This document shows positions 1,052-18,459 of a stretch of 64,000 nt of DNA, one piece after another. The position numbers and the translations under genes are program-made. Source of the DNA: Dehalococcoidia bacterium (GTDB lineage: Bacteria; Chloroflexota; Dehalococcoidia; Bin125); NCBI GenBank assembly GCA_022822855.1, contig JAJDYG010000033.1, positions 1-64,000 on the forward strand, written 5' to 3'. The number at the start of each line of letters is the position of its first letter. Position 1 is the stretch's first letter. Under the pieces are notes generated by a model. The model searched no databases, was not told the DNA's origin, and saw only the letters and a program-made list of their open reading frames with translations.

Positions 1052-2560
1052 ATGACCACTTCACGCGCATTTGGCAAGACACCCGCGCCCGCCGTGCCCG
1101 ACGGCATGACCTGGCTCAACACCGGTCGCGAAATGTCGATGGACGACTTCCGCGGCCGCCTGCTGATCCTGCATTTCTGGACCTACGCTTGAATCAACTG
1201 CCTCCATGTCCTTCCGCAGTTGCGGAAGCTCGAACGACGCTACGCCGACACCCTGCAGATCGTCTCCGTCCACTCGCCCAAGTTCCCCACCGAGCGCGAG
1301 ACCGAGAACCTGCGCCAGGCCATCCTCCGCCTGCGGATTGAGCACCCCGTCCTCAACGACGCCGACTTCAAGTACTGGCAGACCTTCGGCGCGCGCGCCT
1401 GGCCGACGCTCTGCTTCATCGACCCGCGCGGCAACGTGATCGGCATCCACGAGGGCGAGCTAACGGAGGACATGGCTGCGCCCTTGATCGACGGCTGGCT
1501 GGCCGAATACGAAGCCGAGCAGATTCTCAGTCGACAGAATCTCGGCCTGGTCCGCGAGACCGGCCGCGACAGCGCGCTCTCATTCCCGGGAAAGGTCGCC
1601 TGGGACGACGACTCCGGCCGCCTCGTCGTTTCCGACAGCAACAACGACCGGATCATCGTCGCCGACATCGATGGCAACGTCTCCCAGGTGATCGGCGGTT
1701 CGGAGGCAGGCTTCCAGGACGGCCCCGCATCGGAAGCCAAGTTCAATCAGCCGCAGGGCGTCGAGATCCACGGCGACTACGTATTCGTCGCCGACAACGA
1801 GAACCACGCCCTGCGTCGGATCGACCTCAACGACGGCAGCGTGACCACGATCGCCGGCACCGGCGAGCAGGCGCGGATGATGCCCTCCGGCGAGCCGGCC
1901 ATTCGGACCGCGCTCAGCTCGCCCTGGGATGTCGCCCTGCATGACGACGACCTCTACATCGCGATGGCCGGCATCCACCAGATCTGGCGGATGCCGCTCG
2001 GAGATCACGCCGGCGAGGGCTCCTACGTCGGACCCTGGGGCGGCTCCGGCCGCGAGGGCATTATCGATGGCCCGCGGATGCAGTCGGAGCTGGCCCAGGT
2101 CTCGGGCTTGGCCCCGGGTCCGAGCGGCCTCGCTTTCGCCGACTCCGAATCCAGCGGCGTCCGCGAAATCAGCTGGGACCCCGACGGCCGGACGACCACC
2201 TTCATCGGCAAGACCGGCCAGGGCGGACTCTTCCATTTCGGCGACGAGGACGGAGGCCGAGCGGTGGCGAAGCTGCAGCATCCGCTCGACGTCGCCCGCG
2301 TCGGCGACGAGCTCTACGTCGCCGACACCTTCAACCACAAGATCAAGCAGGTCTACCCGCTGACCGAGAACGTCAACACGCTCGTTGGAGGCCACGGAGA
2401 CGCGCTCGGCACCTTCGGCGAACTCCAGCTCGACGAACCCGGAGGCCTCACCAACGGCCCCGGCCGCTCCCTCCTCGTCGCCGACACCAACAACCACCGC
2501 ATCGTCCACGTCGATCTCGAGACGCGACAGGGCAAGGAGATCGTGCTGAAGTTTCCCTGA
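1052..2560 (+). CDS. Selenoprotein: thioredoxin-like, NHL-repeat thiol oxidoreductase (UGA = Sec47)
   Basis: 502 aa with readthrough of the in-frame UGA at 1190-1192. Residues about 15-150 are a thioredoxin-like fold with HFWTYA-U-INC around the active site. NHLRC2-like thioredoxin/NHL proteins carry WTYCCINC here, so Sec47 replaces the first cysteine of CxxC and Cys50 is the resolving residue. The WPT at 117-119 supplies the cis-proline (Pro118) of thioredoxin folds. Residues about 170-500 form NHL/beta-propeller repeats (VSDSNNDRI, VADNENHALRR, VADTFNHKI, VADTNNHRI). The reading frame is continuous on both sides of the UGA and both halves belong to one family. A hairpin fitting a bacterial SECIS follows at 1211-1228, and a tRNA-Sec gene lies in the same window. 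No strong Shine-Dalgarno precedes the ATG. Conventional annotation would start at about 1220 and lose the catalytic motif. The substrate is unknown; a redox role in the cytosol is inferred, since no signal peptide is seen. Confidence 0.9.
1190..1228 (+). promoter_or_regulatory. UGA Sec codon and candidate bacterial SECIS element
   Basis: UGA at 1190-1192 is followed by a perfect 7-bp stem CTTCCGC (1211-1217) / GCGGAAG (1222-1228) closing the tetraloop AGTT. There are 25 nt between the UGA and the loop, and a G is in the second loop position, as expected for SelB-binding bacterial SECIS hairpins. A competing stem CAACTGC (1195-1201) / GCAGTTG (1216-1222) also exists. Confidence 0.75.
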
Positions 2561-4673: not shown

Positions 4674-5870
4674 CTAGAACGGTTGCCCACCTCGGCTGAG
4701 GATGCTGATGTAGGCGTCGTAGGCGAAGATGCGATTGCGTCGCTGGCCAGTCCGCTCAGCGACAATACCAAGCTCGATGAGCGTGTCCGTCGCCGAGGCT
4801 GCCGCATTCAGCGAGAGGCCCGTCTCATTCGACAACTCTCGCAGGTTGAGCATCGGCCGCCTGGCAAACGCCTCGTGGGCACTCACCACTGACGTCGCGC
4901 GGCGACCGAGTTGGCGTAGCTGTTGTTGATCGACGTCGAAACGCGCGCTCAGTTCTTCTGTCACGGCGATGCAATCCTCAGCCGTCCAGAGCACACCGTC
5001 GACGAAGTAGCGCAGCCAGAGTTCCCAATCTCCGTTGTCGCGAAGCTGCCCGAGCAGCGAGTAGTACTCGGGTCGGCGCTGCTTGAAGTACAGGCTGAGA
5101 TACAGCGCTGGCTCGCTGAGAACCTCCGACGCCTCCAACATCAGCGCGATCAGCAACCGCCCTGCACGGCCATTGCCGTCCAGAAAGGGGTGGATTGACT
5201 CGAACTGAGCGTGGGCCAGCCCCGCCTTGATCACGATTGGCAAGGTCGAGCGTTCATCATGGATGAACTGCTCCAGTTGCGACATGCAATCGAGGACATC
5301 GTCTGGCGGCGGCGGCACATACATCGCGGTGGCTGGCGACGATCCTCCGATCCAGTTCTGGGAACGACGATACTCGCCAGGCATGAGGTGTCGGCGCGCC
5401 TCTCCCTGCATGAGAGTCTCGTGAACCTCTCGAATCAGCCTGCTGCTTATCGGGAATCCGTCGCGTAGGCGGCTGATGCCATGCTGCAGCGCCGAGACGT
5501 AGTTCGAGACCTCAGCAGCGTCATCGAGTGAGGTCGAAGGCGCGCCGCCCAACTCAAAGGTCAACAGGTCCTCGAAGGTCGATTGCGTCCCCTCGATCTG
5601 GGACGATGCAATCGCCTCGCGGCGGACGTAGGAGAACAGCACCGGCTCGATCGACGGCAGGCGCACGATCATTGCGTCGAGGTAGCCGAGTGCCAGGTGC
5701 GCGGCCTCGAGACCCTGGTGGAACTGATCCATATCAAGAGGTGGGATCGGCGGGAGTGGATTGGGGATGAAGGCGCTGAAGTCTACGCCTTCCGTTTGTG
5801 ATCGCTCATAGACCCCGTTGCGTGATCGGAACATGGAGCATCCGTGAACTAGGCGCTGTTGCGTCATCAT
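4674..5870 (-). CDS. Fic/DOC family protein (class II-type AMPylase)
   Basis: 398 aa. The Fic core HPFLDGNGRAGR is at residues 227-238, with all catalytic and anion-binding positions intact. An N-terminal helix carries an inhibitory-type motif SxxxEG (S89, E93, G94), as in self-inhibited class II Fic proteins. A Fic_N/DUF4172-like region precedes the core and a winged-helix-like C-terminus follows (LRELSNETGLSLNAAASATDT), suggesting DNA binding and autoregulation. It probably transfers AMP or another nucleotide to a protein target, not identifiable here. The start codon sits on the edge of an inverted repeat (5870-5898). Codons 1 and 2 are both ATG and a later ATG at 5834 is an alternative start. 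Confidence 0.88.
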   Translation of the reverse strand: MMTQQRLVHGCSMFRSRNGVYERSQTEGVDFSAFIPNPLPPIPPLDMDQFHQGLEAAHLALGYLDAMIVRLPSIEPVLFSYVRREAIASSQIEGTQSTFEDLLTFELGGAPSTSLDDAAEVSNYVSALQHGISRLRDGFPISSRLIREVHETLMQGEARRHLMPGEYRRSQNWIGGSSPATAMYVPPPPDDVLDCMSQLEQFIHDERSTLPIVIKAGLAHAQFESIHPFLDGNGRAGRLLIALMLEASEVLSEPALYLSLYFKQRRPEYYSLLGQLRDNGDWELWLRYFVDGVLWTAEDCIAVTEELSARFDVDQQQLRQLGRRATSVVSAHEAFARRPMLNLRELSNETGLSLNAAASATDTLIELGIVAERTGQRRNRIFAYDAYISILSRGGQPF

Positions 5871-18361: not shown

Positions 18362-18459
18362 TGGCGGGAGCGCATGGGAGTCGAACCCACCCGAGACGGC
18401 GCGGACCGCCCCGCATCAGTTTTGAAGACTGTGGAGGACACCGGTCCCCTTCCGCTCCC
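18362..18459 (-). tRNA. selC: tRNA-Sec (anticodon UCA), CCA encoded
   Basis: On the minus strand the molecule begins GGGAGCGG and ends CGCTCCC-G-CCA. The D arm has the diagnostic 6-bp stem (GGGGAC/GTCCTC) with loop CGGT, as in known bacterial tRNA-Sec. The anticodon loop is CTTCAAA, giving UCA. The variable arm is long and GC-rich. The T arm is GTGGG-TTCGACT-CCCAT, and acceptor plus T stem approach the 8/5 arrangement, the eighth acceptor pair being a G-G mismatch. It decodes UGA as selenocysteine with SelA, SelB and SelD, none of which is in this window. It sits 22 nt downstream of the DUF4956 gene on the same strand. Confidence 0.93.

Follow-up and report, generated by a model that had tools for sequence, protein, structure and literature searches.

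The closest described relatives of the protein that we report here are human NHLRC2 and plant SOQ1. Human NHLRC2 is essential, mutation of it leads to FINCA disease, and its function is unknown; its CCINC motif sits in the cleft between two domains (PMC6107167). The human protein is inactive in an insulin reduction assay (PMC6107167), so it may not act as a classical thioredoxin. The same study describes NHLRC2-type genes as being without operon context, and it calls the C-terminal β domain of the human and plant proteins non-conserved. For plant SOQ1, whether the protein reduces or oxidizes was long unsettled; as a later structural study is cited in PMC10173003, SOQ1 supplies reducing power.

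Among the known selenoproteins, the nearest in kind are predicted thioredoxin-like or peroxiredoxin-like proteins with a UxxC motif. Examples are the “Redoxin family protein” (PF08534), the “Prx-like thiol:disulfide oxidoreductase” (PF00578), and the “Thiol-disulfide isomerase-like” protein (cd02966), all from Table 1 of a 2026 inventory (PMC13188914). Like our protein, these have selenocysteine (Sec) at the first position of UxxC, a thioredoxin fold, and many cysteine homologs, but none is described as having an NHL propeller or as being NHLRC2-like. Another selenoprotein, the ResA-like WAxxUGC type (NCBIfam NF041054), likewise combines a TlpA/ResA-type thioredoxin domain with Sec. However, its motif differs, it has no NHL propeller, and our protein scores just 19.1 bits against this model, versus a curated cutoff of 300. 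Finally, the C-terminal domain of mycobacterial DipZ (2hyx, 5cyy) is a related thioredoxin domain with the motif SCINC, but DipZ is a cysteine protein whose second domain is different and which has no NHL propeller.

A UGA-containing gene of the NHLRC2/SOQ1 type

We analyzed 64,000 nucleotides of a contig from a Dehalococcoidia bacterium (phylum Chloroflexota), which we call the window. An earlier note on this DNA had proposed that one gene encodes a selenoprotein with thioredoxin and NHL-repeat domains (Table 1). As that note stated, the reading frame continues across the in-frame UGA: the TGA at residue 47 is the sole internal stop in the frame, and another TGA at 2558–2560 terminates it. 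In the readthrough protein, the context is HFWTYA-U-INCLH. Standard ORF calling gives just a 446-residue downstream ORF, from TTG 1220, without the active site; the note had anticipated a shortened gene that lacks its catalytic motif.

We propose that SelB would deliver Sec-tRNA-Sec to this UGA, positioned by a downstream SECIS hairpin, and that the ribosome would then continue into the full 502-residue protein. On the sequence evidence given below, we are very confident in predicting that this is a true selenoprotein gene, with Sec at the UGA, although we have no evidence from the protein itself or from selenium.

Table 1. Positions of the features within the window
Feature	Position	Strand	Evidence
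Selenoprotein gene (predicted), 502 residues, thioredoxin-like domain and NHL β-propeller, NHLRC2/SOQ1 type	1052..2560	+	ORF, phmmer, Pfam, AlphaFold2
Putative Sec codon (UGA) for residue 47, at the attacking position in U-I-N-C	1190..1192	+	Codon column in 160 homologs
Cys50, the resolving residue in UxxC	1199..1201	+	Conserved in 81/81 Sec members and in 78/79 of the others
Bacterial SECIS hairpin, CUUCCGC-AGUU-GCGGAAG	1211..1228	+	7/7 pairs; apical loop starts 25 nt downstream of the UGA
Codon of cis-Pro118 in the WPT motif (117–119); the residue faces the active site	1403..1405	+	Invariant column
selC, tRNA-Sec, anticodon UCA	18366..18459	-	ARAGORN; Rfam RF01852, 70.2 bits, E = 2.6e-12

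The regions on both sides of the UGA belong to the same family, as had been claimed. In phmmer, residues 10–498 align with plant SOQ1 (7djj; E = 3e-100) and residues 12–493 align with human NHLRC2 (6gc1; E = 2e-98), and both alignments run straight through the site. The best Pfam models are Thioredoxin_8 (44.1 bits, cutoff 27) and NHL (69.9 bits). We also used AlphaFold2, with a 29-sequence alignment as the input and with Sec modeled as Cys. The predicted structure (mean pLDDT of 94.5 and pTM of 0.92) has a thioredoxin domain and a six-bladed NHL propeller. Its best matches in the PDB, as found by Foldseek, are human NHLRC2 (6gc1, TM score 0.92) and SOQ1 (7djk, TM score 0.93), both normalized by the query, at 38–40% identity. 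The model superposes on 6gc1 across 513 columns with a TM score of 0.92.

The domain order, the full-length fold, the xINC site, and the cis-proline are the same as in human NHLRC2 and plant SOQ1. In contrast, those proteins have cysteine at the attacking position of CCINC where the bacterial protein is predicted to have Sec, and the neighboring first cysteine is missing from the window's clade, which has alanine instead. The bacterial protein also lacks the HAD domain and the membrane helix of SOQ1, as well as the C-terminal β domain of its human and plant relatives: the last propeller strand (493–497) is followed almost directly by the end of the chain, at residue 502. The earlier note was right that the UGA replaces an active-site cysteine of the family, but it called this the first cysteine, and it is actually the second cysteine of the CCINC pair (and the first of CxxC). 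The note's residue numbers for Cys50 and cis-Pro118 were correct, and both residues are kept. Pro118 is invariant in the 29-sequence alignment (A2) and is the equivalent of Pro163 of human NHLRC2 (PMC6107167).

Using 17 sequences (the window gene and 16 relatives), we obtained an omega of ~0.15 upstream of the UGA (45 codons) and 0.17 downstream of it. These similar values indicate that the two sides are translated into a single protein.

Sec and cysteine codons across the family

We collected homologs from 79 related loci, from a search of 400 genomes of the phylum Chloroflexota, and from a search of 200 genomes of Gemmatimonadota. After removing duplicates, 160 homologs, from about a dozen phyla, covered the site. 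The codon at the Sec position is TGA in 81 of these, TGC or TGT in 78, AGC (serine) in one, and never TAA or TAG. Judging from the codons, this pattern of TGA or cysteine at one position is far beyond chance. The homolog with serine is L070, from Candidatus Anammoxibacter, and its motif is CSVNC.

Two of the checks that had been suggested for this gene, a column of U and C in an alignment with cysteine homologs and the same UGA in related genomes, thus gave positive results, the latter in dozens of independently assembled genomes from two phyla; we let this recurrence take the place of a check for TGC or TGT in raw reads. TAA or TAG in close relatives had been named beforehand as a refutation, and we found none: all of the close relatives that cover the site (L001–L013, L015–L017, and L021) have TGA.

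The family was present in 82 of the 400 Chloroflexota genomes, and 58 of these 82 have TGA. Among the Gemmatimonadota (the phylum of locus L036), it was present in 13 of the 200 genomes searched.

All 81 Sec members retain the resolving cysteine (U-x-x-C). The residue before U is cysteine, alanine, or glycine; for instance, 54 Sec members have C-U-xNC and 9 have G-U-INC. The position of the first cysteine of CCINC varies in the non-Sec members as well (53 with cysteine and 23 with glycine). The window protein does not match the CC(I/V)NC active site, as its clade has A-U-I-N-C. Because of this variation, we consider the window protein to be a Sec variant of the NHLRC2/SOQ1 type, rather than a standard member.

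Possible chemistry of the active site

By analogy to thioredoxin-type UxxC proteins, our protein would be a selenol-disulfide oxidoreductase in which Sec47 attacks as the nucleophile and Cys50 then resolves the selenenyl-sulfide. The substrate, which would be reduced in the cytosol, would be selected by the cleft between the thioredoxin domain and the propeller. The electron donor would probably be the thioredoxin system. We saw by eye neither a signal peptide nor a membrane segment in the 502-residue protein, so our working model is a cytosolic, thioredoxin-fed reductase. We consider reductase chemistry at Sec47 and Cys50 to be fairly likely, but this is an inference from analogy, and we have low confidence in any particular substrate. 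Given the negative result for the human protein in the insulin assay, the protein may accept only a narrow range of substrates, or it may catalyze a different reaction.

It is possible, although we think it less likely, that the protein contains Sec but does something other than reduce disulfides. Its selenol could reduce peroxide or another oxidant, or the protein could be a redox sensor that relays a signal to a partner via the propeller. Sec often serves peroxidases, which would fit with this alternative. So would the lack of insulin reductase activity in human NHLRC2 (PMC6107167) and the statement that it was open whether the plant thioredoxin domain reduces or oxidizes its target, although the later structural study, in which SOQ1 supplies reducing power, is cited as well (PMC10173003). 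On the other hand, UxxC with an invariant resolving cysteine, together with a cis-proline, is a thioredoxin-type arrangement. Also, the nearest solved relatives by thioredoxin domain are thiol-disulfide exchange proteins. We therefore prefer the disulfide reductase.

Relationship to described selenoproteins

The earlier note knew of no description of an NHLRC2-like family as a selenoprotein. This fits with the 2026 inventory, whose 119 prokaryotic selenoprotein families and subfamilies include no NHL-repeat or NHLRC2-like entry (PMC13188914), and the other selenoproteome papers that we checked do not mention NHL or NHLRC2 either. Our literature search did not find any link between NHLRC2 and bacterial selenoproteins, but most subscription papers were outside of that search, so this absence is not proof. 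None of the NCBIfam selenoprotein models fits the window protein.

Unnamed thioredoxin-like or peroxiredoxin-like fragments from metagenomes may overlap with this family, so it could already be known under a generic label. Specifically, the “Redoxin family protein UxxC (PF08534)” or the “Prx-like 3” selenoproteins from the GOS ocean metagenome might be fragments of the same family. The listed UxxC motif is identical; metagenome reads were the basis for defining these families (PMC2398784); and the window protein has a sub-threshold match to Redoxin (PF08534; 23.9 bits, cutoff 26.6). We consider this explanation unlikely, as the best domain models for the window protein are NHL and Thioredoxin_8 instead, NHL and NHLRC2 are absent as terms from the inventory and from the selenoproteome papers that we checked, and no NCBIfam selenoprotein model fits. 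We rate as new the Sec form of the known NHLRC2/SOQ1 family, within the known kind of thioredoxin-fold UxxC selenoproteins, with the caveat that the generic entries might include fragments of it.

A conserved SECIS hairpin

Downstream of the UGA, the window gene has a hairpin (7 base pairs, loop AGUU, 25 nt from the UGA, and -10.4 kcal/mol) that meets the published constraints for a bacterial SECIS element (PMC13188914). These constraints are a loop of 3–9 nt, a stem of 4–16 bp, a G in the first two loop positions, a spacing of 16–37 nt, and a minimum free energy of at most -7.5. This model was passed by 68 of 76 TGA genes but by only 3 of 73 cysteine genes. The eight TGA genes that fail the strict rule (in an ungapped test) do so mostly because of mismatches or low stability.

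By itself, the hairpin in the window is not unusually stable (z = -0.77, single-sequence fold). A whole-window test of minimum free energy against synonymous shuffles was also weak, with a group difference between TGA and cysteine genes of p = 5e-4. Rather, the signal comes from conservation, and position-specific pairing and covariation are decisive. At the seven stem positions, 68 distinct Sec genes have an average of 6.6 pairs, versus 4.5 expected from shuffling synonymous codons; in 73 cysteine genes, the same positions have an average of 2.6 pairs, which is not above the 2.7 expected. In alignment A1, 95.2% of cells are paired (85.5% in shuffles), 23 cells have changes on both sides (5.0 in shuffles), and the covariation score is 0.327 (0.137 in shuffles). 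Sliding the pairing register destroys the covariation signal in this alignment, and RNAalifold predicts the same hairpin unaided. Also, the leucine codon in the SECIS loop is TTG in all 76 Sec genes, versus 9% of the leucine codons elsewhere in them; the hairpin imposes this rare codon. Relatedness among the genes inflates these counts, but the signal nonetheless spans two phyla.

Four cysteine members from family f44, with genomes of 9–14 Mb (L124, L146, L149, and L135), keep six of the seven SECIS pairs. Their hairpin is apparently a relic of a recent change from Sec to cysteine. Some Sec genes have variant hairpins: in L143, L141, L145, and L153, the SECIS has slipped by one base and has a 3-nt GUU loop (in L143, CTGCCCGC-GTT-GCGGGCGG), and in L184, from Gemmatimonadota, the loop is AGGU instead of AGUU.

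The covarying SECIS, the recurrence of TGA across independent assemblies from two phyla, and the purifying selection upstream of the UGA, which matches that downstream, lead us to reject, with very little room for doubt, a pseudogene or a sequencing or assembly error (a nonsense mutation or a miscalled TGC or TGT, with a product that is short or that starts downstream, such as at TTG 1220), even though standard ORF calling yields only the 446-residue ORF.

Sec machinery and the genetic code

The claim that the window encodes its own tRNA-Sec was correct (Table 1), and the genome also contains SelA, SelB, and a Sec-type SelD. This SelD (G000:C29:63104-64045, L116, reverse strand) is itself a predicted selenoprotein, with the motif CGG-U-GSK and, 32 nt downstream of its UGA, a hairpin that resembles a SECIS (TGGCTCA-CGTGC-TGAGCCA). 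We did not find any further selenoprotein genes in the window by scanning the likely coding strands for coding bias and SECIS elements.

UGA is still a normal stop codon in this genome. RF2 (prfB; G000:C29:86074-87120, L170, reverse strand) is present, with the classical CUU-UGA-C site for programmed frameshifting, and TGA terminates 12 of the 50 called genes of the window, so UGA is not reassigned. A genome-wide reassignment of UGA to tryptophan or glycine (codes 4 or 25), or nonspecific readthrough, has nothing in its favor beyond the UGA being in frame, and we reject it as having virtually no chance of being correct: the aligned residue in homologs is cysteine instead of tryptophan or glycine, UGA terminates the selenoprotein gene itself, RF2 has its autoregulatory frameshift site, and no other window gene on a likely coding strand has an internal UGA with a SECIS.

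Across the Chloroflexota, SelB was found in 55 of the 58 genomes with TGA, versus 256 of the 342 others (p = 3e-4). The three TGA genomes without a detected SelB are 77–83% complete. If the TGA genomes are compared only to the genomes with cysteine members (20/24 with SelB), the difference is not significant (p = 0.19). Among the Gemmatimonadota, SelB was found in 5 of 6 Sec genomes, so one TGA genome lacks a detected SelB, and in 3 of the 6 cysteine genomes tested.

Evolution and gene neighborhood

In a maximum-likelihood tree of 101 representatives, seven changes between Sec and cysteine are needed, and six of these are forced by well-supported branches. Supported sister pairs with opposite states include L109/L103, L158/L163, and L184/L183. 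TGA is found throughout the Chloroflexota and then again in Gemmatimonadota, where the Sec and cysteine forms of the family occur side by side (L036, L174, L179, L180, L181, and L184). We considered whether the Gemmatimonadota case could be due to mis-binning, but we rejected this: six genomes of this phylum carry TGA, and five of those have SelB. It is plausible that Sec is ancestral in much of Chloroflexota, but this is not shown, as the deep branches are unresolved.

We did not find a conserved operon or conserved gene neighbors outside of the closest clade, which agrees with the missing operon context described in PMC6107167, so the neighborhood gives no clue about the substrate. An anti-phage role was rejected, as there was no PADLOC match. 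Downstream of the selenoprotein gene, on the minus strand (window 4674–5870), there is a Fic-domain-like protein with the motif HPFLDGNGRAGR, and a related ORF lies at a similar distance in several close loci.

Implications for the family

Cells pay a high cost for Sec and generally retain it where redox catalysis takes place. The repeated presence of Sec at one cysteine of CCINC thus argues independently for redox activity in the family, and it would identify the attacking cysteine. We lean towards viewing the NHLRC2/SOQ1 type as a family of redox enzymes with repeated exchange of Sec and cysteine, with Sec probably ancestral through much of Chloroflexota, and with the catalytic nucleophile marked by Sec as the second cysteine of CCINC, which is Cys90 in human NHLRC2.

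Our results add a selenoprotein family that is widespread, given its occurrence in 58 of the 82 family-bearing genomes among the 400 Chloroflexota sampled and also in Gemmatimonadota. Ordinary ORF calling shortens these genes, and their catalytic motif is lost. The chemistry of this family is unknown; if our interpretation is true, then the Sec form could help to capture the family's natural substrate.
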